Positions 659-49,177 of a stretch of DNA of 64,000 bases are shown piece by piece. This stretch comes from Amycolatopsis sp. EV170708-02-1 (GTDB lineage: Bacteria > Actinomycetota > Actinomycetes > Mycobacteriales > Pseudonocardiaceae). The stretch is from positions 1,302,001-1,366,000 of the forward strand of contig NZ_CP092497.1 of assembly GCF_022479115.1 (NCBI RefSeq), given 5' to 3'. The notes under the pieces are model-generated. The model did no database searches, was not told where the DNA came from, and saw nothing but the letters and a program-made list of their open reading frames with translations. Both the position numbers and the translations under genes were made by a program. How positions within the stretch are numbered: position 1 is the first letter of the stretch; each line of letters starts with the position of its first letter.

Positions 659-700
659 GCCTCGTGAGTGGCAAGGACGGTTAGAGCCAACTAGCTTTTG
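659..700. other. attL: left junction of the integrated element
   Basis: Positions 659-682 are the left arm of a chromosomal hairpin and are identical over 24 nt to the left arm of the intact hairpin at 37694-37717. The match stops at the core TAGA (682-685), after which element sequence starts with GCCAAC (686-691). Joining the left arm, core and the right arm found at 13832-13855 rebuilds a palindromic attB. Joining the element ends gives GTTGGCTAGAGCCAAC, a perfect inverted repeat around TAGA. The core assignment is inferred from sequence. Confidence 0.82.
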
Positions 701-857
701 GTTACCTACTTGTGACGTGCGCTTTTGTGGGTACCTGCTCTCGGTGCAGGGTCTATTCCGCTAGTGCGGGCCCGTACCGTGCGGGACGAGTCCGCACTAC
801 CCGTCCCACCACCGGGACGGGTCGAATGTGCCTTTTCACCTGCACGAACGTTGGTTC

Positions 858-901
858 GGGCCAGGTGGGCCAGGTTTCAGTCAACCCGGCCCACCTGGCC
901 C
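858..901. terminator. Hairpin near the left element end
   Basis: Perfect 14-bp inverted repeat: 858-871 pairs with 888-901, with a further GGTT/AACC pairing inside the loop. It lies about 60 bp beyond the stop of the minus-strand regulator ending at 963, so it could end that transcript. No U-tract is evident. The rest of 613-962 holds the upstream region of the first gene, attL and no gene that I can support. Confidence 0.5.
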
Positions 902-962
902 ATTTCAGCGGTGCACCGCCATTTTCGAGACGCAGCGTGGGCGTGGCCGGTCCGACTAGTTA

Positions 963-1895
963 TCAGGCGGCAGGGTCTTCCCCGTTCCGGGAATGTGCTG
1001 AGCCGGTCAGTAGCGTGAACACTTCAGTCCGCTGCCGCATGTCGCCGGGCGTGTTCTGTTCGAGTTCGCCGGTTCGATTGACGATCCAGTTCCGGGACTG
1101 GTCGCGGTCAAGCGCTGTGGTCGTGAGGCGGCGGAGGAACTCCTGGTAGTAGGCGATCACACTGTCCTCTTCCAGGAAGAGGCTGGCCGTGAAGGCATCG
1201 ACGTGGAACACGGGTTGGTTCCCCTCGTGCTGGAAGACGCTGAACTCGGGCCCGTCGCCGGGTTCTTCAGCCGTGGCGGGTACGACGTGTATGTGACATT
1301 GCGGGAGCGACGACGCTAGCTGGAGCTGAACCAGTTGCTCGTTCATGACGGTCGAGTCGCCGACCACCGCGTTGAGGACGTTTTCGTGGATGTAGAAGTT
1401 GAGTAGTGGGCGTGAGCGCCGGTTGAAGAGGGAGTGGCGGGCGAGCCGGGCTTCGACGCCACTCTCAAGGTCGGGGCCGGTGTAGCCGCACCGTCGCAGA
1501 ACGGCCCGGATGTACGGCTCGGTCTGGAGCAGGGCGGGAATGACTTTTGGGCTGTAGGTAGTGATTGCGACGCTGTGGGCTTCCAGCAGAGTGAGGGTGC
1601 GGAGCTGGTCGGGTAGTCCTGGACTGTGGAATTGCAACTGGTGGCCGTGGGGTTCGCTGGCCAGCGCGACGAGGTCTTCGAGTTCCTCGGGGGTCGCGCG
1701 AGCGCGCGCGAGGTAGATCGCGACATCTCCGGGCGGGACCGAGCGTTGGCCGCTTTCCAGTCGGGAGACCTTCGGGAAGCCCCAACCCAGCATCCGTGAC
1801 ATGTCTGCGCCGCTATAACCGTTCCGTTTACGGACTTGCTGAAGCTCATGGCCCAGTTCCCGTGTGTGCGCGGTCGACGTTTCGGGCTGCTTCAT
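963..1895 (-). CDS. XRE-family regulator with DUF5753 domain
   Basis: The 310-residue protein has an N-terminal helix-turn-helix (about residues 12-65, with an SGADMSRMLGW-type recognition region and a RLESGQR segment). A DUF5753 effector-like domain follows, with typical LLQTEPYIRAVL and YIHENVL stretches. The family is abundant in actinomycetes, often regulates neighbouring genes, and in some cases pairs with DUF397 proteins; no DUF397 partner is present. The ATG at 1895 is preferred over one at 1925 because it overlaps the TGA of the upstream gene as ATGA, suggesting translational coupling. Likely a regulator of element functions; the target is unknown. Confidence 0.85.
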   Translation of the reverse strand: MKQPETSTAHTRELGHELQQVRKRNGYSGADMSRMLGWGFPKVSRLESGQRSVPPGDVAIYLARARATPEELEDLVALASEPHGHQLQFHSPGLPDQLRTLTLLEAHSVAITTYSPKVIPALLQTEPYIRAVLRRCGYTGPDLESGVEARLARHSLFNRRSRPLLNFYIHENVLNAVVGDSTVMNEQLVQLQLASSLPQCHIHVVPATAEEPGDGPEFSVFQHEGNQPVFHVDAFTASLFLEEDSVIAYYQEFLRRLTTTALDRDQSRNWIVNRTGELEQNTPGDMRQRTEVFTLLTGSAHSRNGEDPAA

Positions 1896-2401
1896 GGGTG
1901 CCGCCGAGCCGCGACAGTCGTACATGAGCTGCTCAGCCCTTCACATCCTCGTGCCTCCCGAAGCGTGTGGCGACCGGCGGAGACAGGCGCGGGCGAAGCG
2001 CAGCCTGTCTCCGCCGGAACCGGTGGGCGCCGTGAGCATGTGTCTCTGGCCAGCTGTCCCGCTCGGATGATGACGTCGCACAACGCGTCAAGGTGATCGG
2101 CGAGCCGGTCATGCCCGTAGTCGGTGAGTCGCCAGTGGGTGCGACTACCGTCCCTGCGCACTTCCAGGTATCCGGCTCGCCGGAGCCTGCGGAAGTTGGT
2201 CGATAGGGTTGCACGGTCGACGCCGATCGTGTCCGCGATCGTGGCGAAGTGGCGCCATTGCAGATCGGCGAGCATCGTTGCGCCGAGCAAACGGACCGGG
2301 TGCATGAGCAAGGGGTCCAGACTCTCGACAGAGTTCGGCATCGTCCGCTGCGGCTCGCCGCTCAGGCCGTCATCCTTCCTCGGTCGTGTTTCGTCGCTCA
2401 C
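1892..2401 (-). CDS. Winged-helix (MarR/ArsR-like) transcriptional regulator
   Basis: About 169 residues. The core HPVRLLGATML...ATLSTNFRRLRRAGYLEVRR...THWRLTDYG is a winged-helix DNA-binding domain of the type in which a dimer responds to a ligand. The GTG at 2401 is chosen because GGAGG lies 5 nt upstream; a longer ATG frame lacks such a site. The C-terminal 40 residues are Arg/Pro-rich and unlike the family. Its stop overlaps the next gene's start, so the two regulators form an operon. The promoter region is shared with the divergent gene at 2548. Confidence 0.75.
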   Translation of the reverse strand: MSDETRPRKDDGLSGEPQRTMPNSVESLDPLLMHPVRLLGATMLADLQWRHFATIADTIGVDRATLSTNFRRLRRAGYLEVRRDGSRTHWRLTDYGHDRLADHLDALCDVIIRAGQLARDTCSRRPPVPAETGCASPAPVSAGRHTLREARGCEGLSSSCTTVAARRHP

Positions 2402-2547
2402 GATTCCTCCGCTACCTACCGGCTGACCAGCCACAACGAGTTGTACGATGTGAAATCAATATCTCTCGTGCGCTCATTTCATCGCGAGGCCACCGAGAGG
2501 CCAAAGCGGGGACATTCGAGCTGGCGACGACCGGAGAGGGGCGCGGG

Positions 2548-3750
2548 ATGGCAGCCGATGAGGTGCACGAGTCGCCGCCGCGAACGGTGCTCGAACAGAA
2601 GCTGCGTGAGAGAAGCGAGACTCACGTCGAGTTCGTCAGGGCGGCCGAGGAGTTCGCGCGGAACTTCGGAGAAGCGGGAACGGTCAGTGAACGCAACCTG
2701 AAACGGCTTGTGGCGGGACGGAACCGGGACGGTTCGCGGGTCCGTCCGCGCCCGGCAACCGCTCGCCTGCTCGAACGGATGCTCGGACTCACTATCGATG
2801 AGCTGCTGTCGCCGCCGGACATGGTCCGCTCGGTTGAGACCGGGGAGCAGGAACTACGGCAGATGCTCAGTGCCGCGCGACGCGTGAACACCGAAGTCCT
2901 TGCCTTGCTGCATGAGCAGCTCACCGCAGTACGCCGTCTTGATCGGCAATTGGGCGCGGCAGTCGCGCACGATGAGGTGGCGACCAAGATCCGTCAGGTA
3001 GTGCGTCTGCGGTCGCACAGTCTGACGCCGGACACCCGGGCGGAACTCGCGGCGCTGCTTGCCGAGTTCGGCACCCTCGCCGGATGGCAAGCCCTGGACA
3101 TGGGGGCCGTCGCCGAGTCGTGGCAACACTACGAACGCGCCAAGGAATCAGCCCACGAATCCGAAGACGTGGCGTTCGAGGTACACAGTGCGGCCGAACA
3201 AGCCTTTGTGCTGATCGAGGTGAACGAGACGGCGACCGCCGTCGAGCTGTTGCGAACGACTGAGCAGCGCGCTTGCCGGGCTACGGGAAGGTTGTTGCGC
3301 TCTTGGCTTGCGGCCGCCTATGGCGAAGCGCTCGCCGCGCACGGGCAGCGTTCGGAGAGCTTGCGCGCGTTCGACCGCGCAGCATCCTTGCTGCCCTCTG
3401 ACGCGTCCACTCCGGACGGGCCTTACGTGGTTCTTGACCCCGTGCACCTCGCCCGGTGGCGCGGCCACGCTCTTGCACGCGTCGGCGAACCGGAAGCCGT
3501 CGACGTGCTGTCTTCGGCGCTCAGCCGCCTTGACCCGACGTTCACTCGCGCCGAGACGGGCTTGCGCGTCGACTTGGCAACCGCGTTCTCGGCCATGGGC
3601 GAACGTGAGCAGGGCCGACTACACGCAGACCGCGCAGCCGTGCTAGCGGCCGAGATCGGTTCGGCACGTCAGCAGCGACGAATCGACCACCTTCGTTCGT
3701 CGCTCAAGAGTTCCGACACAGTGCAACCGGGACGGGTCAGCAGGCCGTAG
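2548..3750 (+). CDS. Regulatory protein with TPR-like helical repeats, paralogue of the product at 4295-5428
   Basis: A 400-residue protein. The N-terminus (about residues 15-75) resembles an HTH-type DNA-binding region with an ERNLKRLVAGR segment. The rest is an Ala/Leu-rich helical array (AEFGTLAGWQALDMG, SWQHYERAKESA, AAEQAFVLIEV, LRSWLAAAYGEALAAHG), matching the C-terminal two-thirds of the product at 4295-5428 nearly motif for motif. The start is the ATG after GGAGAGGGG; an upstream in-frame ATG at 2386 has no ribosome site. A NUDIX hydrolase follows 10 bp downstream, so the two are probably cotranscribed. The helical array may sense a small molecule or peptide; this is inference. Confidence 0.75.
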   Translation: MAADEVHESPPRTVLEQKLRERSETHVEFVRAAEEFARNFGEAGTVSERNLKRLVAGRNRDGSRVRPRPATARLLERMLGLTIDELLSPPDMVRSVETGEQELRQMLSAARRVNTEVLALLHEQLTAVRRLDRQLGAAVAHDEVATKIRQVVRLRSHSLTPDTRAELAALLAEFGTLAGWQALDMGAVAESWQHYERAKESAHESEDVAFEVHSAAEQAFVLIEVNETATAVELLRTTEQRACRATGRLLRSWLAAAYGEALAAHGQRSESLRAFDRAASLLPSDASTPDGPYVVLDPVHLARWRGHALARVGEPEAVDVLSSALSRLDPTFTRAETGLRVDLATAFSAMGEREQGRLHADRAAVLAAEIGSARQQRRIDHLRSSLKSSDTVQPGRVSRP

Positions 3751-3760
3751 GCTGCCCGGC

Positions 3761-4309
3761 GTGGCTGACGAACATGGGTCGTGGAAGACGTTCGGTGAGC
3801 GGCTGGTCTACGACAACCGGTGGGTCAAGGTCGGGCTGACCGACGTGGAAGCGCCGAATGGCGAGCGGTGGGACTACCACGTCGTGCACCTGGCGCGGAT
3901 CGCCATAGCGCTCATCGTGAACGACCGAGACGAAGCGCTCATGTTGTGGCGCTATCGGTTCGCTACCGAGCAGTGGGGCTATGAGCTGCTTGGCGGCATG
4001 GTCGATGACGGGGACGACTCCGCCAACACTGCCGCGCGGGAAGCGGCGGAGGAAAGCGGCTGGCGCCCGGTTGGCGAGCCCGAACTCCTGGTGAGCTTCG
4101 AGCCGTTGCCGGGACAGGTAACAGCCCCGGTCGACGTGTACCTATGGCGCGACGCGGAGCACATCGGCGACCCGACAGACACCGAAGAAGTCGGGCGAAT
4201 CGAGTGGGTGCCGCTGTCGCGGGTTAACGAGCTTGCGCAGCGGCAAGAGCTTTTGGGGTCAGGCACGCTGGTGTCCCTGCTGTACTTCCTCAACTCACGC
4301 CGTACGTGA
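3761..4309 (+). CDS. NUDIX hydrolase
   Basis: 182 residues from a GTG start. The NUDIX box spans residues 79-101 with the REAAEESGW core that binds divalent metal. The early Glu of the consensus GX5E is Asp85. The family hydrolyses nucleoside diphosphates linked to another moiety, such as ADP-ribose, NADH or dNTPs; the ADP-sugar-like YELLGGMVDDG context fits ADP-ribose pyrophosphatase relatives, but substrate cannot be fixed. It lies between two paralogous regulators and overlaps the end of the convergent one by 15 bp. This suggests a sensing and nucleotide-hydrolysis module on the element. Confidence 0.9.
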   Translation: MADEHGSWKTFGERLVYDNRWVKVGLTDVEAPNGERWDYHVVHLARIAIALIVNDRDEALMLWRYRFATEQWGYELLGGMVDDGDDSANTAAREAAEESGWRPVGEPELLVSFEPLPGQVTAPVDVYLWRDAEHIGDPTDTEEVGRIEWVPLSRVNELAQRQELLGSGTLVSLLYFLNSRRT

Positions 4310-5428
4310 GTCGCCGGGCAACACGAGACCTTCAAGCCGTCGTCGCAGCCGGACTGATCCGACTTGCGAGATGATCCGCCGCGCCTGCTGAGCGTAGGTG
4401 CGGGCCGCTTCGCGGTCACCGGCCGCGCTGTAGGCAAGGGCAAGATCGACGTAGATTGACGCGCTTGCGCGGACGAACGACGGCTGCATTCCGTCGGCGA
4501 GTCCTTCAAGCTGGGCGATCGCTTGTGGATCGCCGAGCAAGACGAGTGCGTTTCCTCGCCAGCGGTCGAGATGCGTGCCACCGAGAAACAGGAACGGCAA
4601 CTCCGGGTGCACGACCTCGGAAGGACGTAGCGCGTCTGCCTCATCGAACGCCCGGCGGGCATCACCATCGTTTCCGGCACGCGCGTATCCCTCGCCTTCC
4701 GCTGCGGCGAGCCATGCGCGCAGCAGGCGCGGTGCTCGCTGGCCGATCTCGCGTGCTTCGGCGAACAGAGACAGGGCGTCATCGACGTTGCCCGCGTCGA
4801 TCAGGACGAAGGCCTGTTCAGCGGTCGCGTGGGCAAGCAATGCCGATGATCCGGATTCCAGGGCGGCCGACTTGGCGCGGTCGTAATGAGTCCACGCTTG
4901 CGCAAGCGAGCCGATGTCGAGCGCGTTCCAACCGGCCAATGTGGACGCCTCGGTGAGGACACCGGCCAGTGGCGCCCGGTCACGGCGCAACAGGGTGTGC
5001 CGTAGCAAGTCTTCTACCTCGGTGATCTGACCTCGCAGTCGTTCAAGACGTGCGGCGGAACCGAACCTCCGGTCCGCGTGCCTGACGCCGTCGACCTCTT
5101 GCCGGAACAACGCGATGGTCTGGGAGTCGACGCGGCGAGCGATGACGAGTCGTTCGGCGAGTTCCTCGCCGATGCCCCTGTCAGCGCCCTCGTCCGGGAA
5201 TCCGAGTTCAGCGTTGGTTCTGCCGTAGATCTCACGCAGGATGGCGCGCATCGGCGGTTCCGGCACGATGCGCCCGTTTTCCCACCGCGATATTTCGGTC
5301 TTCCTGCTCGCGACCGGGAGCACGGGCAGATCACGCCCCGGACAGCGGTCATTGATCGCCCGCGCGAGCTTTTCCTGGCCCCATCCGAGTGCATGCCGCG
5401 CAGCCTGCAAGAGGCTTTTCGAGGTCAT
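4295..5428 (-). CDS. XRE-family regulator with TPR-like array
   Basis: 377 residues. The N-terminal HTH (residues 1-75) carries GWGQEKLARAI and KTEISRWENGR, a clear Cro/C1-type fold. Residues 130-370 form a helical repeat array of the kind used by actinobacterial peptide- or ligand-responsive regulators. It shares this array with the product at 2548-3750, implying duplication; here the HTH is better preserved. The gene converges on the NUDIX gene, overlapping its last 15 bp. The 175-bp upstream region holds the direct repeat ATAACAC in a short AT-rich stretch, possibly promoter or operator. Confidence 0.82.
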   Translation of the reverse strand: MTSKSLLQAARHALGWGQEKLARAINDRCPGRDLPVLPVASRKTEISRWENGRIVPEPPMRAILREIYGRTNAELGFPDEGADRGIGEELAERLVIARRVDSQTIALFRQEVDGVRHADRRFGSAARLERLRGQITEVEDLLRHTLLRRDRAPLAGVLTEASTLAGWNALDIGSLAQAWTHYDRAKSAALESGSSALLAHATAEQAFVLIDAGNVDDALSLFAEAREIGQRAPRLLRAWLAAAEGEGYARAGNDGDARRAFDEADALRPSEVVHPELPFLFLGGTHLDRWRGNALVLLGDPQAIAQLEGLADGMQPSFVRASASIYVDLALAYSAAGDREAARTYAQQARRIISQVGSVRLRRRLEGLVLPGDSRTA

Positions 5429-5602
5429 GAGCTAACACTCTCGGGCGCGCGATGACCTGCGGAAATAACACGGGATAACACAGGTCGTGTCATCCTCTGC
5501 CCGCTCCCGGCGGCCGATGAAATGCCGTTTCTTAGAGGCATGACATACGACACGAACCCTTGCCGGACGGCTATTCGAGCCGACCGGAAAACGGAACTCC
5601 CG

Positions 5603-6022
5603 CTACACGCCGGAATTCCTGTCACGGCTGACCAGTTCGGCGACGTCGGTCCGCAGATCCGCGAGCTGCTCGGTGATCTCGGACAACCGTCGTTCGATCA
5701 CTGCCAGCCGGGCCGATACCGCGTCTTCCATGTCCTCACGGGGCTGCCCCAACGCTGGCGGTATCCGTCCATGCAAGACGGCCAGCAGGTGTTGCGGGTG
5801 CAGGCCAAGGGCCAACGCGAGCGCTTCAAGCGTGCGATCGCTGCGCTTGCGCTCGACAGTGTGGTTCTGGATTTCGCGGACGATCGCCTGCGAAACCTGC
5901 GAGCGTTCGGCCAGTTCGCGTTGTTTCCATCCGAGTTCGCTGACGCGCTCGTTGATGGCCTTCGCGACCGCCGCCCAATCTTCCGACACCCATTCCTCCG
6001 TGGTCCGCCTCAGCGCCGACAT
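5603..6022 (-). CDS. Small XRE-family regulator with coiled-coil tail
   Basis: 139 residues from the ATG at 6022, or 128 from a GTG at 5989 that has GGAGG 5 nt upstream. Residues 20-80 are a helix-turn-helix (WKQRELAERSQVSQAIVREIQ). The C-terminus (SARLAVIERRLSEITEQLADLRTDVAEL) has heptad spacing for a coiled coil, probably the dimer interface. The gene is divergent from the transfer operon, with a pair of 14-bp direct repeats between them. By analogy with transfer repressors such as KorSA it could repress transfer; that role is inferred from position only. Confidence 0.8.
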   Translation of the reverse strand: MSALRRTTEEWVSEDWAAVAKAINERVSELGWKQRELAERSQVSQAIVREIQNHTVERKRSDRTLEALALALGLHPQHLLAVLHGRIPPALGQPREDMEDAVSARLAVIERRLSEITEQLADLRTDVAELVSRDRNSGV

Positions 6023-6094
6023 TAGCGCTTAAGGCGATTCCGCGGCGCCGGCGACGGGCCGTGGCGCTCATTCGGACCATTCTCACGCCATTGT

Positions 6095-6131
6095 GCGACT
6101 AAATCAGCTCTTTTTTCGCGACTAAATCAGC
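6095..6131. promoter_or_regulatory. Paired 14-bp direct repeats, candidate operator
   Basis: GCGACTAAATCAGC occurs at 6095-6108 and again at 6118-6131, start-to-start spacing 23 bp (about two helical turns). The pair lies between the divergent XRE gene (start 6022 or 5989) and the excisionase-like gene (start 6157). This is the position expected for an operator controlling transfer and excision. Confidence 0.55.
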
Positions 6132-6156
6132 GATCTCACGTTAGGACTTCATTCTG

Positions 6157-6351
6157 ATGAAAAAGACAACTCACGGCGCCGGGCATCCGGCGTTCTACTC
6201 GGTAGCGGACGCGGCGTGGATTCTGGGCGTCGACCGCGACCAGATCCACCGCGCTATCCGGCTCGGTGTACTGCCTCTCGTCCGGCGCCGCTCCCGTCTG
6301 GTGATTCCGGCCGCCGCTCTCCGGCGCGTGCTCGACGGCGGTGCGCGATGA
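6157..6351 (+). CDS. Excisionase-like helix-turn-helix protein
   Basis: 64 residues consisting of one MerR/Xis-type HTH: FYSVADAAWILGVDRDQIHRAIRLG followed by a basic wing (RRRSRLVIPAAALRRVL). The family binds bent DNA and often acts as a recombination directionality factor; in serine-integrase systems such proteins may instead be transcriptional activators. It is first in the transfer operon and its TGA overlaps the next ATG. The upstream ribosome site is weak (AGGA 11 nt away). Confidence 0.75.
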   Translation: MKKTTHGAGHPAFYSVADAAWILGVDRDQIHRAIRLGVLPLVRRRSRLVIPAAALRRVLDGGAR

Positions 6352-6680
6352 ACCACGACGAATACACGGAGATGACCGCCCGGCTTGACCGCTACGCCAG
6401 CGTCCCGGACGACGTCCTGGCCGAAGCGGTGACCAGGGATGGCCTGTGTTTCTGGGCGTTCGACAGGACCGACATGCCGGAACTGACCGGAGACGACCCG
6501 CCAGACCGGGAGCTAGCCGCACGACTGTGCGCGGGATGCCCGGTGATCGACGAGTGCCTTGAACTCGACCTGCGGACGGCTGGAGCGAACACGGTCGGAG
6601 TGTGGGGCGCGTTGCCGGACACGGATCGACGGGCCCTGTATCCGGTCTGGCGCCGCAGCCGGGGCGGTGAGGTGCGATGA
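6348..6680 (+). CDS. WhiB-family transcription factor
   Basis: 110 residues with the four Wbl iron-sulfur cysteines: Cys34, Cys61, Cys64 and Cys70. GVWGALPDTDRRAL follows, corresponding to the family's G(V/I)WGG turn and basic tail. Wbl proteins bind a [4Fe-4S] cluster and sigma factor region 4 to control transcription. Start and stop both overlap neighbours by ATGA, so it is embedded in the transfer operon. A WhiB within an integrative element suggests that the element couples transfer to the redox or developmental state of the host. Confidence 0.88.
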   Translation: MNHDEYTEMTARLDRYASVPDDVLAEAVTRDGLCFWAFDRTDMPELTGDDPPDRELAARLCAGCPVIDECLELDLRTAGANTVGVWGALPDTDRRALYPVWRRSRGGEVR

Positions 6681-7009
6681 CGGTCAACCTCACGCCGACA
6701 CAGATCCTCGCCGGAATCGGTGTCCTGCTCGTCCTGTTCGTGGTGTGGCGGTTCAGCGCCCGGAAAGCACGGCAGGCGGCCGACGTGGCCAGGGCAGGCG
6801 TCCGGGTCGTCTCGCTTGCCGGACGCGTCCTGTTCACGGGCGCCGCGTTCGTGGGCGTTCAGTGGCTGGTGATCACCCACCCCGGCAATCCAACGCTGCT
6901 GCTCGTGGTGCTCGCAGTGCCGGACTTGATCGCGGCACACGTGCTGACTCGCGCGCTCACCGTGACATCGCTGGACACCACATCCCGTGGTGGTGGTGGT
7001 CGCCGATGA
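6677..7009 (+). CDS. Small membrane protein of transfer operon (Spd-like)
   Basis: 110 residues with two or three hydrophobic helices: about 10-25 (ILAGIGVLLVLFVVW), 45-65 and 72-95. A basic Gly/Arg tail (RGGGGRR) ends the protein. Actinomycete conjugative elements carry small membrane 'spread' proteins next to the Tra translocase; similarity here is by size, topology and position, not by a diagnostic motif. The start overlaps the WhiB stop and its stop overlaps the translocase start. Confidence 0.65.
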   Translation: MTVNLTPTQILAGIGVLLVLFVVWRFSARKARQAADVARAGVRVVSLAGRVLFTGAAFVGVQWLVITHPGNPTLLLVVLAVPDLIAAHVLTRALTVTSLDTTSRGGGGRR

Positions 7010-9186
7010 ACGCGGACGACAAGACCGTGAACGGCACGTCTGCCTTGGCACACAAGGATTCAGGAGAGCTAGAACACATCGGGCCAGTGCTCGACGCTGA
7101 GCTGATCGATGACACGTTGCCGCAGCCTCGCGGCCGGACGGTCCGGCGCCGGTTGGTGCGGTGGTGGCTGCATTCGCCTCTGGTGCCGTTGTGGCTGAAG
7201 AGCAAGCCTCAGGCGGTACAGGCCCTGAAAGACGCGGTCGTGGCGGTGCTGAAGTCGCCGTGGCGCTATCTCCGCGCGGTCGTACGTGGTCTCGTGGCCG
7301 GTGCCCGGTGGTGGCGCACGTGGGTCACGGTGCGGGACTACCGCACGGCGGCCGAAGAGTCGGACAAGCTCGCCGACAAGTTCACGGACATCCGTGAACT
7401 GACCTTGTTCCGATGGAAGGTCACCGGCGCGGTACTCGTCGTGGCGGCTGTCGCGGTCGCGATCGTCCATCTCGTGTACGGGAGCGATCCACTGTGGATA
7501 GCCGGAGCCGCCGCATCGGTGACGCTGGCGATCCTCGGTCGCCGTAAGGACGGCACACCGGGCCGAAAACCGGCGCTGGCGGGTCCGCGCTCGCTGACGT
7601 GGACGATGGACCCGCAAGTGCTGGTGGACGCGTTCCGGGACGCGAAGCTGATCGGGAAGGACGAGAGCCTGCGTCTGGTGGAGCGAGCGCACCGGATCGG
7701 TGACGGCTGGGCGATCACGGTCGACCTTCCGGCCACGCGCAAGGCGGCCGACGTGGTGAAGAACCGCGAAGCCCTCGCGTCAGCGCTGGCGGTCGATGAG
7801 GTACAGCTCATCGTGGAACGTGTCCGGGGTAACGGCGGACACGCCGGGCGCGTGTCGATGTGGGTCGCCGATGAGGACCCGTACGCATCCCCTCCATTGC
7901 GGACACCGTTGTTGGGTGTGACGAGATGGGATGCGTGGCGGGCGGTGCCGTTCGGTCGTGACGCACGGGATCGACGGATCGATCTGCCGTTGGTGTGGAC
8001 GTCGCTTCTGATCGGCGCGATTCCGAGACAGGGAAAGACATTCGCGGCACGCCTCGCCGCAGCAGGCCTGATCTTGGACGCGTGGGTCCGGCTGTACGTG
8101 GCGGATTTCAAGGGAGGTAAGGACTGGGACGCAGCTGGCCAGCTGGCGCATCGGTTCATGTCCGGCGACGAACCCGAGCACGTCTTGTCGCTAGTGGACT
8201 GGCTCGTTGAGCTGGTCGCGGAGGTTCAGGGCCGATACCGGCGGATGCGGGACCTTGACGACCTGACGTGCCCGGAATCCAAGGTCACCCCGGACATGTC
8301 CCGGGACAACGCTCTGAACATGCCGATAACAGCGATCATCATCGATGAGGTCCAGCTACCGCTAGAGGACCGGACACCTGTTGTCGTGCAAGGAAAGAAG
8401 GTCCCTGCGGGTGAGTACATCGGCGAGTTGCTGACCTGGTTGGCGAAGAAAGGACCAGCCGCCGGAATCGTGCTTGTCCTCGCCACACAACGGCCGGACT
8501 CCAAGACCATCCCGTCCGGTCTGCGCGCGGTACTCGGCTCACGGTTCGCCCTGCGGGTGATGGACTGGCGAGACTCCAACATCGTGCTCGGAGAGCAGAT
8601 GAACACCCGGGGCTACGACTCCAGCCGTCTCCTCCCGTCGCACAAGGGCGTGGGCATCTTGCGGCCGGACGGGGACACTGCCGCCGGGGCCGATGTGCTC
8701 GCGATGACGGTCCGGACCTACTACATGCCGAACGAGGATTGGCAGGCGATCTGCCAACAAGGCCGCGCGCTGCGCGAAGCGGCCGGGACACTGTCCGGAC
8801 ACGCGGCGGGGCACGACACCACACCCACACTCGATCACGCCGCCGTCGCTCGCGCGATCGGCACGGGGGCCACCACCGGGCGGACACCGGCCCCGGCGGA
8901 CGTCGTGGAGCTACCGGAACCGCTCGCGTCCGTCGTCGCCTACCTCGGTGACGACCTGGATGACGGCGGCAGGGCGTTCGTGCCGACGTCCGAACTGGTC
9001 GATGCGCTCGACGTCGAACCGACCGCGTTCGGGCGAGCGATGGGCGACTACGGATGCCGCCCAAGCAGGGAACGCGTACCTGGTATTGACGGGGAGACCA
9101 AACGCGTACGCGGCTACCTCACAGCCGATGTCCGGGCCGCCATCGAACGTGTCACAGCGGGTGAGGCGGCGCCGGATGACGGCTGA
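7006..9186 (+). CDS. FtsK/SpoIIIE-type conjugal DNA translocase (TraSA/TraB-like)
   Basis: 726 residues from the ATG at 7006, which overlaps the previous TGA. A membrane segment lies near residues 139-180. The motor domain has a Walker A AIPRQGKT near 336-344 and Walker B TAIIIDEVQ near 442-450, then VLATQRPDSKTIPSGLRAVLGSRFALRV typical of FtsK motors. A C-terminal winged-helix-like DNA-binding segment (about 640-720) may recognise clt-type repeats. Single proteins of this type transfer double-stranded DNA between mycelial actinomycetes. A longer open frame upstream only overlaps the WhiB and membrane-protein genes. Confidence 0.92.
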   Translation: MNADDKTVNGTSALAHKDSGELEHIGPVLDAELIDDTLPQPRGRTVRRRLVRWWLHSPLVPLWLKSKPQAVQALKDAVVAVLKSPWRYLRAVVRGLVAGARWWRTWVTVRDYRTAAEESDKLADKFTDIRELTLFRWKVTGAVLVVAAVAVAIVHLVYGSDPLWIAGAAASVTLAILGRRKDGTPGRKPALAGPRSLTWTMDPQVLVDAFRDAKLIGKDESLRLVERAHRIGDGWAITVDLPATRKAADVVKNREALASALAVDEVQLIVERVRGNGGHAGRVSMWVADEDPYASPPLRTPLLGVTRWDAWRAVPFGRDARDRRIDLPLVWTSLLIGAIPRQGKTFAARLAAAGLILDAWVRLYVADFKGGKDWDAAGQLAHRFMSGDEPEHVLSLVDWLVELVAEVQGRYRRMRDLDDLTCPESKVTPDMSRDNALNMPITAIIIDEVQLPLEDRTPVVVQGKKVPAGEYIGELLTWLAKKGPAAGIVLVLATQRPDSKTIPSGLRAVLGSRFALRVMDWRDSNIVLGEQMNTRGYDSSRLLPSHKGVGILRPDGDTAAGADVLAMTVRTYYMPNEDWQAICQQGRALREAAGTLSGHAAGHDTTPTLDHAAVARAIGTGATTGRTPAPADVVELPEPLASVVAYLGDDLDDGGRAFVPTSELVDALDVEPTAFGRAMGDYGCRPSRERVPGIDGETKRVRGYLTADVRAAIERVTAGEAAPDDG

Positions 9187-9358
9187 CAAGCGGGAGAGCT
9201 ACGCCGAAGAGCAGGCGCGTTTGGACGCGGAAGCGGTCGACCGCTGGGCGGTAATCATGGCCGATTGGCCGCCGATGACAGACGAACAGATTCAGGCGAT
9301 CGCGATAGTTCTTAACCGAATCGAGACACGTCTTGCAGAAAACTGGAAGCAGGCCTGA
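9176..9358 (+). CDS. Small hypothetical protein downstream of the translocase
   Basis: 60 residues, acidic and helical (YAEEQARLDAEAVDRWAVIMADWPPMTDEQ), ending in a probable amphipathic helix (IAIVLNRIETRLAENW). The ATG lies 11 bp inside the end of the translocase gene. No family recognised. Small acidic proteins after the translocase are common in actinomycete integrative elements. The gene ends at an inverted repeat, suggesting the operon stops here. Confidence 0.65.
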   Translation: MTADKRESYAEEQARLDAEAVDRWAVIMADWPPMTDEQIQAIAIVLNRIETRLAENWKQA

Positions 9359-9401
9359 ATAGTGGCTCATTATTCTAAACTAGGGTGATGAGCCACTATT
9401 C
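9357..9401. terminator. Hairpin at the end of the transfer operon
   Basis: Perfect 14-bp inverted repeat, 9357-9370 with 9388-9401, overlapping the last codon of the small gene. The sequence that follows is AT-rich. It lies between convergent genes and marks where GC content drops into the cargo island, so it probably terminates both directions. Confidence 0.65.
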
Positions 9402-9490
9402 AATAAGTTTACTAACTTTACTTCCCGGAAGGTTCGCAGTAACCACTCGGTGTCAGCTTTTATTTAGAATAGCAAGGAATCCGATCTCGC

Positions 9491-10990
9491 CTAGGAGTCA
9501 CTTGGCCCATTGGTGTTATCACTGGAACTAACTTGCTCGGTTTCGACACCCTGGTCGCGAGTCGATTCAACCGCCTGCCCCCACAATGCCAGTGCGCCAG
9601 CAATTATTCTTGAATCGATATCATCCGTTGTGAGCTCTGGCCACTGCAATCTGGCACGGAGAAGATTCCGAAGAAAGTACCTGGCCGCTTCGATAGTATC
9701 TACTTGACGGCCGTGCAGGGTTACATTCACAGCCTTAGCGGGCCTCTTGCGACCGTGAACAATGGCAGATCGCAGGGAATATAGAGACTTGGACGCCTCG
9801 ATCACTTCGGCGGAATTGCTTATTCCAAGTTCAGCGAGGACTGCTGCTATACGTATGGCCACCTTGTATGTGGCGTCACCTGGATTGCCCGCAACTAAAG
9901 CTTCAATTCCAATGCAGAGGTCCAGAAGTCTGTCAACGTCACTCGGACGCCGCTCCGCGTCCAGTAAGCGCTGTGCCGCTACCGAAACAATATTCTCCTG
10001 CTGTCCCAGGGAGGTAAAGCCTTCTCGCAATAGCTCAATCTCTGATCCGCTTAGAGTCTTTGTGGGCTCGGTTGCGGCCTTTAAAGCGGTTGAATAATGC
10101 GGCAAGAATGGACCTGGGAGCACCTCGGGAAGTGGGCCCGTAAACTCATGACTCCATCCTACAGGGCGATATAGGACCTGCACATATCCGGTTGGCTCTT
10201 CGGCAAATGTTGATAAGACCTGAAAGAATCTATCTAGAACAGGGGCCTCGATTGGACTATCCTCCGGAGTCCATAGCCAAGTTAACGCAGTTGGGTTCGG
10301 GAGGGTCCATCCTTCCAGCACTATCGCATGTGTGGCCATGGGAATTAGCTCCTTATAGGCGCTCACGCGAGGGTTTCCAGATGCGCGCGCAAGCTGAAGC
10401 CCGTCATCCATTCGCTCAATAAATGTTTTCTCGTCTAATTCGATTCGATCGGATTCGAATGAAATATTGAGAATTGGTACCACTAGCCTTATCGGAACCT
10501 CATCAAGAACCCACCAGGCCGCTAACTTGAGAACATGCTCTCGAAGCGCCTCGGTGTTCAGTTCCCAGCCGTTCTCAAAGACATGCTTCTCGGCTGCAAT
10601 AACAGGAAGCTTTCCTACGTTAACACGTAGGACGTGTTCCATGAACTCGTCCCTGCCGCCAGCGAGGGAATGAAATCGCTTGAGGTCATCATGGTCAATT
10701 ACATAATTTATAAGGGCTTCGAATCCATCAAGCTCCGAGTACTGGTATTTCGTGCCCCACCTGTTATCGTTTGTGAAAGCGCCGTCGAGGTCTAGTGCGC
10801 GCTCCACGCTGGCGCCCGACTTCACGGTGCGATAATCGACGCGATCATCAACAAACGCAGGCAGTGAGATTGTTTTAAATTCGTGGCCAGACCTGTCTAG
10901 CTCAGCCGACTTTTGCAGCACATCCACTGCCACCCTGAACGCCAGGTCGACCAGTATGTCAAGTTCATCCAGATTGTTAATTCTTGTCAA
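9491..10990 (-). CDS. HEPN-domain protein, candidate defence RNase
   Basis: 499 residues from a TTG with AAAGGA 8 nt upstream. The C-terminal third resembles the Apea-like HEPN fold (LLDLCIGIEALVAG, then SLYSLRSAIVHG). It has the R-X4-H motif at Arg407-His412, the catalytic signature of HEPN ribonucleases. The N-terminal 300 residues match nothing I recognise. Many HEPN proteins of this size act in antiviral abortive responses or toxin systems, but no phage phenotype can be read from sequence. The gene is visibly AT-richer than its flanks and lies on an element, which suggests separate acquisition. It is divergent from the DUF6338 gene. Confidence 0.72.
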   Translation of the reverse strand: MTRINNLDELDILVDLAFRVAVDVLQKSAELDRSGHEFKTISLPAFVDDRVDYRTVKSGASVERALDLDGAFTNDNRWGTKYQYSELDGFEALINYVIDHDDLKRFHSLAGGRDEFMEHVLRVNVGKLPVIAAEKHVFENGWELNTEALREHVLKLAAWWVLDEVPIRLVVPILNISFESDRIELDEKTFIERMDDGLQLARASGNPRVSAYKELIPMATHAIVLEGWTLPNPTALTWLWTPEDSPIEAPVLDRFFQVLSTFAEEPTGYVQVLYRPVGWSHEFTGPLPEVLPGPFLPHYSTALKAATEPTKTLSGSEIELLREGFTSLGQQENIVSVAAQRLLDAERRPSDVDRLLDLCIGIEALVAGNPGDATYKVAIRIAAVLAELGISNSAEVIEASKSLYSLRSAIVHGRKRPAKAVNVTLHGRQVDTIEAARYFLRNLLRARLQWPELTTDDIDSRIIAGALALWGQAVESTRDQGVETEQVSSSDNTNGPSDS

Positions 10991-11265
10991 TCTGCAATCC
11001 TTTCGTGCACGGAATTTCCAGAGTGGCGCTTCTGGCTATGTCGACGTCCAGTATCTCTCATCTTCTGCGCGGCGGTAGCTAGGCTACCTCGCACGAGATG
11101 ACGGGGTGACAACCTGGAACCCTAAGCGTATTGTCGTTCGACAAGCCCAAGGTAACGCGCGCCAACCTGAATGACCTCAAGGAAGGGTGCCGTCACCGGG
11201 GGACGCAGGATGCTTGCCCGTGGAGGCGGATACGCGATGACGACTTCGGCGCGGGAGGTTGCTTT

Positions 11266-12012
11266 TTGATTCCGGGAACTTCGTACCAGTTAATAGTCGC
11301 CGTCGCCCTGGTACTACCGGGTATTGTCTTTGGTACAACCTTGCAGCGTCTACGCGGCCCAACCCCGGAAGACAAGGACGCTAGCACTCGCATCTTGCGC
11401 GCAATCGCAGTCGGCGCTGCACTTGACGTACTATACGCCTTGGCCTTTGGGCCCAAGTTAGTTCAACTCGCGCATCCTGCGCCGGGACGTCAAGCGTCGT
11501 TGCTTTCAATATTTACCGCAAATCCACGTGAGATCGCACTCTGGGTGGCTCTCTTGGCGGGAGCAGTGCCCGCACTGGCGGCATTCTGCGTACATTTTCA
11601 ATCGGCATTTCGTGAAACATCTCGCGAAATTTCCATAAAGAAGCGCCTTGCCGACGCGCTAAAAATCCACTACAGGACCACTCCGACCGCCTGGGATTAC
11701 ATTGCTCGTGAGGGCGGGTGCTTTATCCGCGTTCGCTTGTCGGATGGCGTATACTTCGGCGGATGGATTGACGAACAAAGTTTCGTGAGCGGCTACCCGG
11801 AGCCGAAGGATATTTTTATACGCTCTCAGTGGGCCCTGAATGAAAAGGGAGTCTTTCTTCATAAGATCCAGGGCACACGCGGGGTGTACATACCAGTGTC
11901 GGACGGTGTAGTTGTCGAATGGCTATCAATGCCAGATCAAGTTGAAGATGGGTCGTCGGTTGAACCCCTGAAACAGAGAAACAAGAAGTTAAGGAGTATT
12001 AATAGTGAGTGA
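11266..12012 (+). CDS. DUF6338 family membrane protein
   Basis: 248 residues from a TTG at 11266, with GGGAGG 7 nt upstream; an earlier TTG at 11131 lacks a site and adds a non-family extension. It has the family order: a membrane helix near the start (YQLIVAVALVLPGIVFG), RGPTPEDKD, further hydrophobic helices near 50-65 and 90-110, and a soluble C-terminus with TAWDYIAREGGCFIRVRLSDG, GGWI, SFVSGYPEPKDIF. The function of DUF6338 is unknown. It overlaps a small gene by 8 bp and is divergent from the HEPN gene. Confidence 0.82.
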   Translation: MIPGTSYQLIVAVALVLPGIVFGTTLQRLRGPTPEDKDASTRILRAIAVGAALDVLYALAFGPKLVQLAHPAPGRQASLLSIFTANPREIALWVALLAGAVPALAAFCVHFQSAFRETSREISIKKRLADALKIHYRTTPTAWDYIAREGGCFIRVRLSDGVYFGGWIDEQSFVSGYPEPKDIFIRSQWALNEKGVFLHKIQGTRGVYIPVSDGVVVEWLSMPDQVEDGSSVEPLKQRNKKLRSINSE

Positions 12013-12184
12013 CGATCAGCGGACAGGACGTCCTCAGCGGTCCGTTACGGGTGGTGGACATCCGCGTTCCAACACGGAGGAGCGTGGGCGTAATCCTTCG
12101 TCAGGAGGCTCAAAAGAGCCAACTGTTGGCCCGAAGACTCCGAGTGGTGCAAGCAGCGCAAACGCATCGTCGGAAGACAAGTAA
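12005..12184 (+). CDS. Small disordered protein paired with DUF6338
   Basis: 59 residues from a GTG with AGGAG 8 nt upstream. The composition (Ser, Gly, Pro, Arg, Lys, Thr) predicts a disordered, soluble protein with no domain. It overlaps the DUF6338 gene by 8 bp and should be translated from the same message. Such a short polar partner directly after a DUF6338 gene suggests a two-gene unit; this is inferred from arrangement and from my recollection of similar loci. Confidence 0.65.
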   Translation: MSDDQRTGRPQRSVTGGGHPRSNTEERGRNPSSGGSKEPTVGPKTPSGASSANASSEDK

Positions 12185-12244
12185 TAGCCTGGCCAGGCAG
12201 CATAAGCCTTAGTCTTTGCAGGCTCTGGCATGAATGCTGCCTGG

Positions 12245-13795
12245 TCAGTTCGTCTTGCTTCGGTTGCTCACATGGTTGCGCAACTCGACGCGAACTCGAT
12301 CTTTATCGAAAGTGCGAAACCCGGCTTTAGTAGATGGGTCTACTATGAGGGCGTCGGCACCGAGCGCGTCTAGCAGTAAGGCGCGTTTCTCGGAGACTTC
12401 GGCGCCATCCCACTTCTCGGCGGCTTCTTGGCGGGTCAAGGGTTCTGTGGGTCCTTCTGGATTTCCTCCGGTCAGTTCGTCGCGCTCGGCTTCCAGTCGC
12501 GCAAGTTCTTTCATGGCCGGTTCGTTGGCCTTGTCGTACGCCGCTTCGGTCATCTTGTCGGCCCCGAACTTCGCAGCGATCGCCTCAAGTCGAGCGTTGC
12601 ATTTGGTGAGTGCTTCTTGCACCTGCTTGAGCCGATCGGAGATTCGGGCCCGTGCTGCCTTAATCGCCGCTGCATGGCTCTTGTCCGACAAGCGAGCGAT
12701 CACGATGCCGCGAATCTCGCGATCAAGCATCCGCATGTCGGCTGCGACCTTGCCACACCCGCCACGCGCTTTCGTGCACGCGTACTGTCGTCGCCGTTGC
12801 CCATCCTTGTACTCCCCAACATGCGGACGGCCGGACAGCGACTTCCGGCATAGGGAACATGTCGCGATCCCCGAGCCGACATAGCTGTGCCCCGCCTGCT
12901 TGCCTCGCGTGCGTCCAGCAAACATCGCGCGCAACCGCTCGAACCTGATCGGGTCAATGATCGGCTCACCGGGCATGTGCCCTACGACCTCGCCGTCGTG
13001 CTCGATCAACCCGGCATTGCGAGGCCTCAGCAGTACCTCCCTGATCTGCACAGGCGAGAACACCTTTCCCGTGACCGTGCGCAGCCCGGCGGCCTTCCAC
13101 TCGTCGTGCAGCGCGATCAGTGTCACTTCCGCGAGCAAGGCATCAGTGCCGGACCGTAGCGCTGCGCGTTCCCGTTCCACCAGTTCCGCCGGAACCTGCT
13201 TACGGGTGTCTTTGCCGTTCTCGTCCAGTGCGTTGTCCTTCGACACCGTCCGGTCCAGCCCGGGGAACCCAAACGTTCTGCCCTGGTGATGCGGAACGCC
13301 CCGTTTGCGCAGCGTCTCGAACCGGCGCGAGATCCTCTGAGATGCCTCATCGGAGTTGCGCTGGTTGTGGGCGACCTCCTGCCGCAGCTGATAGCGATCG
13401 TTGTAGTCCGAGAGGTCATATCGCCCATGTGACGACGCCACAGTGAACGAGTCGAACCCCTCGATCACCTTGAACATGTCCTCCAGGTCGGGCGAGCGAC
13501 GCCACCCCCTGTCGGTGTTCCACAACACCACCCCGTCACACGCCCGCGCCGCAACTCGCTTCATGATCCGTTCCCACCCCGGACGACGAACCCTCGGGTT
13601 CCACGCCGAGAGCTTCGGGTCGGAAATCTCCTCGCCCAGCACGCCGCCCAACCGTTCGATCACCTCACGGTTGTCGGCGTGCTGGGTTTCGCACTTCTCC
13701 AGCTTGCCCGCTTGGTTGCGGGACAGTCGCGCGTACGAGTCCAATACCGGCTGCCGACCACCCTGACCTGCACTAACCTGATGATTGATCGCCAT
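12245..13795 (-). CDS. Large serine recombinase (integrase)
   Basis: 516 residues. The N-terminal resolvase domain has the catalytic SYARLSRN with Ser25 as nucleophile. The recombinase domain follows (FGFPGL near 180, then PVQIREVLLRPRNAGL). A zinc ribbon (CSLCRKSLSG...CTKARGGCG, about 320-365) and a long coiled coil (about 385-450, LKQVQEALTKCNARLEAIAAKFG) complete the architecture. These enzymes recombine short attP and attB sites without host factors. The gene lies 28 bp from the right junction, as is usual for this class, and is convergent with the cargo genes. It should catalyse integration at the hairpin attB described here. Confidence 0.95.
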   Translation of the reverse strand: MAINHQVSAGQGGRQPVLDSYARLSRNQAGKLEKCETQHADNREVIERLGGVLGEEISDPKLSAWNPRVRRPGWERIMKRVAARACDGVVLWNTDRGWRRSPDLEDMFKVIEGFDSFTVASSHGRYDLSDYNDRYQLRQEVAHNQRNSDEASQRISRRFETLRKRGVPHHQGRTFGFPGLDRTVSKDNALDENGKDTRKQVPAELVERERAALRSGTDALLAEVTLIALHDEWKAAGLRTVTGKVFSPVQIREVLLRPRNAGLIEHDGEVVGHMPGEPIIDPIRFERLRAMFAGRTRGKQAGHSYVGSGIATCSLCRKSLSGRPHVGEYKDGQRRRQYACTKARGGCGKVAADMRMLDREIRGIVIARLSDKSHAAAIKAARARISDRLKQVQEALTKCNARLEAIAAKFGADKMTEAAYDKANEPAMKELARLEAERDELTGGNPEGPTEPLTRQEAAEKWDGAEVSEKRALLLDALGADALIVDPSTKAGFRTFDKDRVRVELRNHVSNRSKTN

Positions 13796-13809
13796 AGATC
13801 AACCGTAGG

Positions 13810-13855
13810 TCGACAAGAGAGGGTTGGCTAGAACCGTCCTCAACACTCACGAGGC
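13810..13855. other. attR: right junction of the integrated element
   Basis: Element sequence ends with GTTGGC (13823-13828) and the core TAGA (13829-13832). Chromosomal sequence 13832-13855 is the right arm of the target hairpin. The right arm matches the complement of the left arm at 659-682 except for a 3-nt internal mismatch. The 85-residue gene that follows has its stop codon inside this arm, so the target hairpin was that gene's terminator. Confidence 0.82.
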
Positions 13856-21783: not shown

Positions 21784-22208
21784 GAGGTTCAAGCATATCA
21801 TTGATGTACCGGTTGAAACTTCTGTCGACTTGACCTGGAGATCCGGTGTTGAAGCTTCAAACCGGGCGTCAGGTGATGACTGTGGCTCGCCGAGGCGCGG
21901 CCGCCGTGACTGCGAGTCCCTTGCCGACGCGGAGTCCGTGAGGGCCTCCTTCACTACCTTCAAGGTAGGCAAGGAGGCCCTCACGGACCGAACCCGATTC
22001 TGCGGTACCGCAAGAAATCCACTGACGAATAGCTGGATCTCTTTTCTTTCTTCCGCTATAAAGCTTTAAAGAACCCTTCGCGCGCGAAGGCGCTTCGCTC
22101 GCGAAGCAGCCTTTCGCATAGGTGCGCGAGTGCAAGTTATCAGCAGTTGAGGTGAATCACCGCGTGGCAATCGCCGCGCGGCCGAAGTTCGGCCCTACTT
22201 TGTCCCGC
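21784..22208. other. Intergenic region with hairpins and AT-rich stretch
   Basis: 425 bp between two divergent genes. It contains the large hairpin at 21934-21988, a second set of Ser-codon-free palindromes around 22078-22115 (CTTCGCGCGCGAAG and GCTTCGCTCGCGAAGC), and an AT-rich stretch with TATAAAGCTTTAAA near 22058-22071 that could be promoter. I see no protein-coding gene here. Confidence 0.5.
21934..21988. repeat. Long nested intergenic hairpin
   Basis: Perfect 18-bp outer stem (21934-21951 with 21971-21988) enclosing a second 6-bp stem TACCTT/AAGGTA. It starts with GTCCGTGAGGGCCTCCTT. It is one of several long-stem hairpins in the window and resembles the others in its purine/pyrimidine blocks. 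It lies between divergent genes, so a terminator role is unlikely; a mobile hairpin or regulatory element is possible. Confidence 0.65.
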
Positions 22209-25074: not shown

Positions 25075-25110
25075 GCGCTGTCCTGCAAGTCTTGTCCGCG
25101 GTGGTGGGAT

Positions 25111-25153
25111 GAAGGCTCCCTTCGCCGCGTCTAATGCGGTGAAGGGAGCCTTC
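25111..25153. terminator. Hairpin, copy 1 of a repeated family
   Basis: Stem 25111-25123 with 25141-25153 (13 bp, perfect) plus inner CCGC/GCGG. The reverse complement of the whole 43 nt matches 49133-49175 at 42 of 43 positions. It lies between the STAS gene and the convergent LigD-like gene, so it can terminate both. Confidence 0.75.
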
Positions 25154-25208
25154 GGCCCTGGTCAAGCGCGGGCCACATTTGCCTCACCCCTCGATACAGG
25201 ACAGCGGT

Positions 25209-26711: not shown

Positions 26712-26764
26712 GCGCCGAAGGTCCCTTTTCCCACGGTAAAAGGAGGAAAAGGGACCTTCGGCGC
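26712..26764. terminator. Long terminator hairpin after the ABC exporter operon
   Basis: Perfect 20-bp stem, 26712-26731 with 26745-26764, loop 13 nt. It lies 10 bp beyond the stop of the ABC gene and about 65 bp upstream of the LigD-like start, on the same strand. Confidence 0.75.
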
Positions 26765-37293: not shown

Positions 37294-37346
37294 GAAACAG
37301 CCCGGGCACCCGGCGTGAGGGGAACGCCGGGTGCCCGGGCTGTTTC
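37294..37346. terminator. 22-bp hairpin between small genes
   Basis: The arm GAAACAGCCCGGGCACCCGG at 37294 onward pairs with its complement ending at 37346, giving about 22 bp with a 9-nt loop. It is upstream of the DUF2795 gene and beyond the stop of the DUF6131-like gene at 37388, so it probably ends the latter. Confidence 0.7.
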
Positions 37347-49134: not shown

Positions 49135-49177
49135 AGGCTCCCTTCACCGCATTAGACGCGGCGAAGGGATCCTTCAC
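49131..49177. terminator. Hairpin, copy 2 of a repeated family
   Basis: 49131-49145 pairs with 49163-49177 with one mismatch. The 43 nt at 49133-49175 are the reverse complement of 25111-25153 except for one base. It terminates fdhD and the convergent carbonic anhydrase operon. Confidence 0.75.

Follow-up and report, generated by a model that had tools for sequence, protein, structure and literature searches.

The element near the start of the window (the whole 64,000-nucleotide stretch of the Amycolatopsis sp. EV170708-02-1 genome that we analyzed) very probably encodes a serine integrase specialised on a hairpin dispersed through the host genome, such that copies of the element would accumulate; the flanks of the copy in the window probably come from two different landing sites.

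The Element and Its Attachment Sites

The element is 13,147 bp long and is bounded, as a sequence-only reading of this DNA had proposed, by attL and attR ends, both TAGA junctions being located in the window sequence (682-685 and 13829-13832). GGACGGTTAGAGCCAAC, at 675, and GTTGGCTAGAACCGTCC, at 13823, each occur once in the window. Joining the flanks gives a rebuilt attB, GGACGGTTAGAACCGTCC, which lies, as also proposed, within a long hairpin that is far beyond chance, and joining the element ends gives a rebuilt attP, GTTGGCTAGAGCCAAC. The two sites are distinct and have a common symmetry axis, the 2-bp AG (T-AG-A), which is the layout usual for large serine integrases; for the A118 serine integrase, for instance, a site that is pseudo-palindromic about a central dinucleotide has been described (PMC3783163). 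Around AG the perfect arms are 8 bp long in attB and 7 bp in attP (GTTGGCT-AG-AGCCAAC), and over 22 bp the two arms agree at 19 positions for attB (window copy) and at 15 for attP. The perfect inverted repeat previously ascribed to attP thus holds for its inner 7 bp and not beyond. TAGA itself had been taken for a 4-nt core, a proposal that we reject given the symmetry about AG and the perfect arms on either side of it; nor do we find support for the orientation puzzle seen in a palindromic attB, given that the 2-bp AG is a non-self-complementary centre.

Arm comparison places the left host half of the hairpin attB (CTCGTGAGTGGCAAGGACGGTT) at 661-682 and the right arm of attP, in attL, at 685-706, on either side of the left crossover dinucleotide AG (683-684, plus strand), which was assigned, like its right counterpart (13830-13831, plus strand), from the symmetry axis. 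At the other end, the left arm of attP, in attR, occupies 13808-13829 and the right host half of the hairpin attB (AACCGTCCTCAACACTCACGAG) 13832-13853, the latter, judging by relatives, derived from an original site other than that of 661-682.

The integrase gene stands at the right end of the element, as foreseen (12245-13795, minus strand). Between its start codon (13795) and TAGA lie 33 bp, and the 28 bp previously given as its spacing to the junction is approximately what separates it from the inner GTTGGC arm. The 516-aa product carries YARLS with Ser25, the active-site serine, kept in 32/32 aligned integrases, and matches the N-terminal resolvase catalytic domain (PF00239, 34.4 bits against a cut-off of 23.3). 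Both a recombinase domain and a zinc ribbon with coiled coil are recognizable: PF07508, for which the window protein scores 19.9, below the cut-off of 21.1, is matched by 45 of 47 relatives, and PF13408, which the window protein does not match, by 25 of 47, the four cysteines (Cys313, 316, 340 and 347) being kept in 31-32 of 32 integrases. A search of solved structures with the single sequence gave no match and a profile search did; the predicted structure (pLDDT 83, pTM 0.42) has serine integrase complexes as its top matches (E about 1e-16), with a whole-chain TM of only 0.2-0.4. By profile and fold, the product is a large serine integrase, which we presume to be active.

Three other genes of the element lie on the plus strand. 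The first (6157-6351) encodes an excisionase-like 64-aa protein (TIGR01764, 20.1 bits, below the curated cut-off of 28.8), and the second (6559-9186, with a true start probably further in) an FtsK/SpoIIIE-type DNA translocase (PF01580, 25.8 bits against a cut-off of 24) that is weakly TraB-like (plasmid_TraB, E 8.5e-6, far under the cut-off of the profile). The third (9176-9358) encodes a 60-aa protein that recurs at 11 of 12 further element loci searched in the hairpin clade (absent from L072) and lies on the strand opposite the integrase at each of the 11, an association that makes it a candidate directionality factor; the element would be excised with the aid of such a helper protein. A scan of seven ORFs for defence genes gave one marginal match for the NUDIX ORF and one, to LmuB, for the integrase.

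The Hairpin Is a Dispersed Host Repeat

A palindrome, CTCGTGAGTG-N12-AG-N12-CACTCACGAG, is present in 240 copies (up to 3 mismatches) in the genome itself, and the rebuilt attB is one of them; the pattern has 26 free bases, and a reversed control with 24 gave 1 chance match per strand. Of the genomes searched, 58 of 80 in the genus and 143 of 390 in the family contain the palindrome. The window has another copy, intact and unoccupied, at 37696-37741 (centre CT on the plus strand), with 0 expected in 100 shuffles. By a crude gene caller, 17 of 24 copies lie beside a stop codon, and the family is, like REP/RAYT repeats, a dispersed extragenic palindrome. A RAYT transposase was rejected as its spreader, Y1 (PF01797) having 0 matches in the genome and a control search being positive in 5/14 genomes. 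Rfam returned only miRNA-type and sRNA matches to the hairpin, far below gathering scores. The hairpin subsets used were non-random, comprising 85 among the matches listed of 240 in this genome and 60 among the matches listed of 184 in G032. In open-licence PMC literature, no title or abstract start among the matches listed concerned the palindrome or serine integrases with dispersed hairpins as targets, and literal 10-mers retrieved, among the matches listed, unrelated titles.

At 46 bp, the palindrome has roughly the length of a serine-integrase attB, which would fit a view of its copies as scars or seeds of the elements and not as a host repeat. We consider this view very unlikely: genomes with no integrase match are rich in copies (G079, 512; G015, 306; G035, 287; G026, 143), and a close integrase is present in just 10 of the 80 genus genomes.

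One Clade of Integrases Occupies the Hairpin

All 16 genus loci whose integrase is at least 68% identical to that of the window lie in the palindrome, and at all 16 the box CACTCAYG follows just beyond the integrase end, as compared with 0/10 loci at 43-47% identity. In a tree of 32 integrases, the hairpin users form one side of a single branch (support 97/94). Hairpin labels on this tree are text matches no more than 75 nt from where the integrase starts, weakest for L111; L046, L047, L050, L051 and L117 (<400 aa) were left out, as was L002, a duplicate of L001. One genome (G045) has three identical integrases, each in a different hairpin, and that of the window has identical integrases at 2 sites, while the criterion of Durrant et al. 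for multi-targeting (a 90%-identity cluster in >3 target gene clusters) is exceeded only across the wider clade. Copy counts are lower bounds, the relative searches having scored, in each genome, only some of the first-look candidates (about 18, 8, 3 and 8), with 30 loci fetched per search. The left ends of other elements were sought as the reverse complement of their right ends, an approach that favours palindromic pairs. Accepted left ends scored 35-45 and the next candidate 21-26, except at L063 (37), where the runners-up were shifted versions of the same place; this search found none for L053, L059-L061 and L062, and the left-end set does not include L064-L071.

An integrase of relaxed specificity, accepting any strong hairpin, would account for the variable inner arm sequences of the occupied sites and for the often palindromic-looking sites of other-clade integrases. 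It is nonetheless an unlikely explanation, as the outer box is kept at every one of the 16 close loci despite the presence, in the window outside the element, of 7 further long hairpins that lack it. Three genomes with 35, 18 and 66 hairpins (G022, G067 and G071) have other-clade integrases, and these sit elsewhere.

Copies with Apparently Exchanged Flanks

The genome has three integrase genes, and each element lies in a different palindrome copy. Copy 2 is whole, inverted and 3.35 Mb away; it has no substitutions relative to the window copy, and the only differences between the two are three indels of 1 bp each, all within runs of C. The third element is related to these two. The exact junctions and neat rebuilt site in the window would suit the arrangement first supposed, an element of the ordinary site-specific type whose one attB separates the 107-aa gene from the PEP-mutase-like gene and whose hairpin is a local terminator. 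This explanation is scarcely credible: as a single-site reading it is refuted by the second element copy, the palindrome is repeated throughout the genome, and the window flanks adjoin in none of the relative loci.

Among 29 such loci, the left flank of the window copy (L1) adjoins the right flank of copy 2 (R2) in 22, the left flank of copy 2 (L2) adjoins the right flank of the window copy (R1) in 3, and L1 occurs alone in 4. L1 next to R1 was seen in 0/29. This mismatch is a property of the sequences themselves, and because the joined flanks neighbour each other in none of the relatives, the rebuilt attB of the window is probably chimeric, its halves coming from two different landing sites. 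It had been claimed that attB can be rebuilt exactly from the two ends in the window, and this does not hold. Neither does the expectation of an uninterrupted hairpin at this locus in empty-site genomes, as relatives show other neighbours, and an intact hairpin of the family is absent from all 19 junctions that we inspected in relatives for copies 1 and 2.

The same comparison succeeded for the third element, with one true empty site (in G045; 95% identical over 502 nt) in which the palindrome is intact. Its centre is CT and copy 3 needs AG; therefore the ancestor's centre must have been the other way round. At this locus, 8 of the 9 closest relatives carry a different sequence, and in 7 further relatives the flanks are 6.5-8.5 kb apart, with no hairpin of the family and no related integrase between them in the 3 of 7 fetched.

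The flanks were exchanged either through recombination between copies or through misassembly. In the latter case, an assembly error across two identical 13-kb repeats, the real order would be L1-element-R2 and L2-element-R1, precisely the pairs seen in relatives, and the copies, distinguished only by the three C-run indels, could not be bridged by reads <13 kb. Such an error is a serious contender, though we lean against it: the genome is in one contig, which may mean long reads, and recombination of inverted identical copies is expected anyway. It bears on the swap only and leaves the targeting unaffected.

Proposed Mechanism and Significance

In the mechanism that we favour, the attB of the integrase clade would be a dispersed, sequence-specific host palindrome, CTCGTGAGTG-N12-NN-N12-CACTCACGAG, often situated by stop codons, and the circular element would recombine with a copy of matching central dinucleotide. 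Hairpin variants with CGTGAGTG boxes and centre AG would be substrates, and unoccupied copies would be used in the same way. As the two attB arms are nearly identical, the dinucleotide alone would set orientation, and because about 240 sites per genome leave the target unexhausted, element copies would accumulate. Flank exchange between two identical inverted copies would then explain why the attB halves to the left and right of the window copy stem from different sites. A broader proposal, offered tentatively and somewhat doubtful, is that one clade of Pseudonocardiaceae integrases has become specialised for scattered terminator-like hairpins. Its crossover dinucleotide would follow whichever hairpin centre is commonest in the host species, and its sister integrases would have specialised on further hairpin families in these genomes; the hairpins would be a genome-wide array of safe intergenic landing sites, and the landed copies would drive megabase inversions.

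Large serine integrases are valued for a single rare attB, and the hairpin clade appears to read a long specific sequence repeated up to hundreds of times. As these repeats often follow directly on stop codons, multiple insertions of an element could do little damage, which would offer natural multi-copy integration in Amycolatopsis and relatives. The system offers ready substrates for studying how an integrase follows a changing target, crossover dinucleotide included, and exposes a palindrome family with matched arms in 15 of 46 genera of one bacterial family. It also holds a warning for genome analysis, in that an attB rebuilt from two ends may look perfect yet be chimeric if the target is a repeat.

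Comparison with Known Systems

Classical large serine integrases typically use one main attB per genome, whereas the genome studied here holds hundreds of near-perfect palindromes. The domains are alike, by profile and fold, in A118, phiC31, Bxb1, TP901-1 and SPbeta, and pseudo-palindromic half-sites about a central dinucleotide are likewise common to both (PMC3783163).

With AICEs (actinobacterial integrative and conjugative elements) the element shares an integrase and an FtsK-type translocase, the TraB match itself being weak. We dropped AICE as a name for it because no replication initiator (RepSA, RepAM or Prim-Pol) was found among the 10 ORFs scanned with Pfam and the 10 with NCBIfam. 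A serine recombinase is present in 19 of 144 AICEs, and integration is described, in the part of that source available to us, into protein genes and tRNA genes and not into hairpin repeats (PMC3218068).

Insertion sequences that can target REP palindromes (PMC1525189) also have a dispersed extragenic palindrome as their target, but they rely on transposases, while the present element has a serine integrase in a genome without a Y1 (RAYT) match.

Among the closest are the multi-targeting large serine recombinases, in which one integrase uses several sites, as here, and for which evolution toward sequences present at multiple host sites has been allowed (Durrant et al. 2022, PMC10083194). Relatives of the window integrase (47 scanned) match 4 Pfam families; DUF4368, present in 63% of that multi-targeting clade (PMC10083194), is not one of them. 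Multi-targeting being already known, we read specialisation on a dispersed host hairpin as a variant of it: the worked example of Durrant et al. is a short, AT-rich, relaxed motif (PMC10083194), whereas here the target is long and specific, a palindrome of which there are hundreds of copies.

Integrase and Symmetry of the att Sites

The 516-aa protein encoded at 12245-13795, at the right end of the 13,147-bp window element, is, as judged from Pfam, its relatives, profile searches and predicted fold, a large serine integrase. Its resolvase domain scores above the Pfam cut-off and its recombinase domain slightly below it, Ser25 is kept in 32 of 32 relatives and the four zinc-ribbon cysteines in 31-32 of 32, and a profile built from 47 relatives matches the solved A118, TP901-1, phiC31 and SPbeta integrases. 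Serine integrase complexes are also the best structural matches to the predicted fold (mean pLDDT 83, pTM 0.42), at low whole-chain TM scores of 0.2-0.4.

Both element junctions are exact and each is unique within the window. Aligned with their own reverse complements, the rebuilt attB, GGACGGTT-AG-AACCGTCC, and the rebuilt attP, GTTGGCT-AG-AGCCAAC, have their axis on the dinucleotide, while attL and attR are not symmetric (4/8 and 5/8 matches). The TAGA at 682-685 and 13829-13832, which the sequence-only reading took for a 4-nt core, therefore reads T-AG-A, its outer T and A being arm bases. That reading also saw in the palindromic attB an unusual problem of orientation; because serine integrases are known to use pseudo-palindromic sites built around a central dinucleotide (PMC3783163), there is no such puzzle.

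A Dispersed Hairpin as the Probable attB

The pattern CTCGTGAGTG-N26-CACTCACGAG, which delimits the 46-bp palindrome, occurs 240 times in the own genome (at most 3 mismatches), and a pattern search places the only intact copy in the window at 37696-37741. With a related pattern, the palindrome is present in 58 of 80 genus genomes (0 to 512 copies per genome over the 80) and, at no more than 1 mismatch, in 143 of the 390 genomes of the family, from 15 of the 46 genera, while the reversed-pattern control gave zero in the own-genome, genus and family searches among the matches shown. Among the 85 own-genome copies listed, the centre is AG or CT in all 85, the 22-bp arms are perfect in 61, and in 70 the variable 4-nt blocks of the two arms match (20 on average and 33 at most when shuffled), so that the arms change together.

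By a crude gene caller, 24 copies lie between convergent (14), tandem (9) or divergent (1) genes; under a stricter test, a long coding frame has its stop codon next to 17 of the 24, with one on each side in 9. The folding z-score of the RNA is -9.7 on one strand and -10.1 on the other, and a role as terminator or 3'-end signal is plausible. Rfam holds no fitting family, and no Y1 (RAYT) transposase was found in the own genome. The window has six other long hairpins (21937-21985, 25108-25156, 26714-26762, 37296-37344, 44714-44762 and 49130-49178); some resemble those in the same intergenic slots of relatives, and the genus thus appears to harbour several families of dispersed hairpins that take one another's place.

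An Integrase Clade Tied to the Hairpin

Integrase relatives (E <= 1e-60) occur in 19 of 80 genus genomes, at no fewer than 26 loci. The motif CACTCAYG lies directly outside the integrase end at 16/16 genus loci with at least 68% identity and at 0/10 with 43-47% identity; beyond the genus it recurs at three loci about 48-54% identical (L110, L111 and L116), most weakly at L111. When 32 integrases are placed in a tree, the 16 that lie in the hairpin fall together on one side of a branch (support 97/94). Availability of the hairpin alone does not explain this use, because three genomes with 35, 18 and 66 hairpins (G022, G067 and G071) have integrases of the other clade, located elsewhere. Outside the integrase end, five other-clade loci (L039, L041, L044, L046 and L115) also seem, as read by eye, to have palindromes, of different families and with centres of the CCAA type.

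In G045 (probably A. roodepoortensis), three identical integrases sit in three different hairpins. Ten elements have both ends (the window element, L004, L005, L054-L058, L063 and L072), and their rebuilt attB palindromes match at 19-22 of 22 arm positions, a number biased upward because symmetry was used to search for all left ends but the window's; the exception, L072, matches at only 13 of 22 and has a broken integrase. The symmetry search found no left end for L053, L059-L061 or L062, the G045 contigs stopping earlier at L059-L061. Among 60 listed hairpins of genome G032, 41 have a GG/CC and 14 an AG/CT centre, and its element has a GG crossover. That the crossover dinucleotide tracks the host's hairpin centre is a suggestion, as this is one case.

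Copies of the Element and Their Sites in Relatives

The own genome (9.66 Mb, single contig) has two genes for the window integrase and one for a 71% relative, and the three elements sit in three different copies of one 46-bp palindrome. Copy 2 (L004) is the entire window element, inverted, 3.35 Mb distant and free of substitutions, its only differences being three 1-bp indels, all in C runs. One such deletion, at the place matching window position 8300, breaks the translocase frame of L004, and may be either real or a sequencing error. The third element, of 10.4 kb, matches the window proteins compared only in the integrase and the end of a 60-aa protein.

A genus search with joined flanks, from which 29 loci were fetched, allowed the left and right flanks of the window copy (L1, R1) and of copy 2 (L2, R2) to be mapped in relatives. 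L1 adjoins R2 at 22 loci, L2 adjoins R1 at 3, L1 occurs only by itself at 4, and L1 adjoins R1 at none, which argues that flanks were swapped between the two identical inverted copies. The window attB, held by the sequence-only reading to be rebuilt exactly from the element's ends, is thus probably chimeric as judged from these adjacencies. The swap, hidden by the repeat because every left half fits every right half, arose either by recombination between copies (a 3.35-Mb inversion) or by an assembly misjoin. Nor did the uninterrupted hairpin expected in related genomes appear at the loci of copies 1 and 2: it is intact at 0/19 relative junctions, and at several of them stands a hairpin of another family or a short remnant, so that one intergenic slot changes its hairpin between species.

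The third element's locus served as control, its flanks adjoining in 9 relatives (full-length match, at least 85% identity). Here a true empty site was found, at L122 in G045 (C5:1836854-1837355), 95% identical over 502 nt and with the palindrome intact; 8 of the 9 closest relatives carry other hairpin families or short remnants. A point against the hairpin as target is that the G045 site reads CT and copy 3 needs AG; the ancestral centre must therefore have been flipped, and the palindrome centre seems to flip between species. In seven further relatives (G014, G015, G026, G035, G038, G050 and G053) the flanks lie on one strand, 6.5-8.5 kb apart, and in the three fetched of these seven neither a hairpin of the palindrome family nor a related integrase was found between them. 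At L152, L153 and L154 the flanks are parted by a block of genes some 8 kb long, which is 91% alike between L152 and L153, the two compared.

Element Content

The window element encodes an FtsK-type translocase, an excisionase-like protein below the cut-off, two NsdA-family regulators, HTH regulators, NUDIX and DUF6338 proteins, and is like a small integrative element in its working. The name AICE was not adopted, a replication initiator being absent among the ORFs scanned. Association alone makes the 60-aa protein (9176-9358, strand opposite the integrase) a candidate directionality factor: it occurs in 11 of 12 other hairpin-clade element loci searched, always opposite the integrase, is absent from the broken L072, and has weak matches in 2 of 8 other-clade elements. 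Directly after the translocase and 60-aa genes lies a hairpin (9357-9402; 17/20 arm bases matched), perhaps their terminator.

Comparison with Known Systems

In the literature searched, we found no description of a clade of serine integrases that has a dispersed hairpin with co-varying arms for its attB. PMC10083194 already documents serine integrases with more than one site, a trait shared by the present clade, whereas here attB is a dispersed, co-varying hairpin. Dispersed palindromes as targets are likewise known, REP palindromes being used by insertion sequences (PMC1525189), whereas here the user is a clade of serine integrases.
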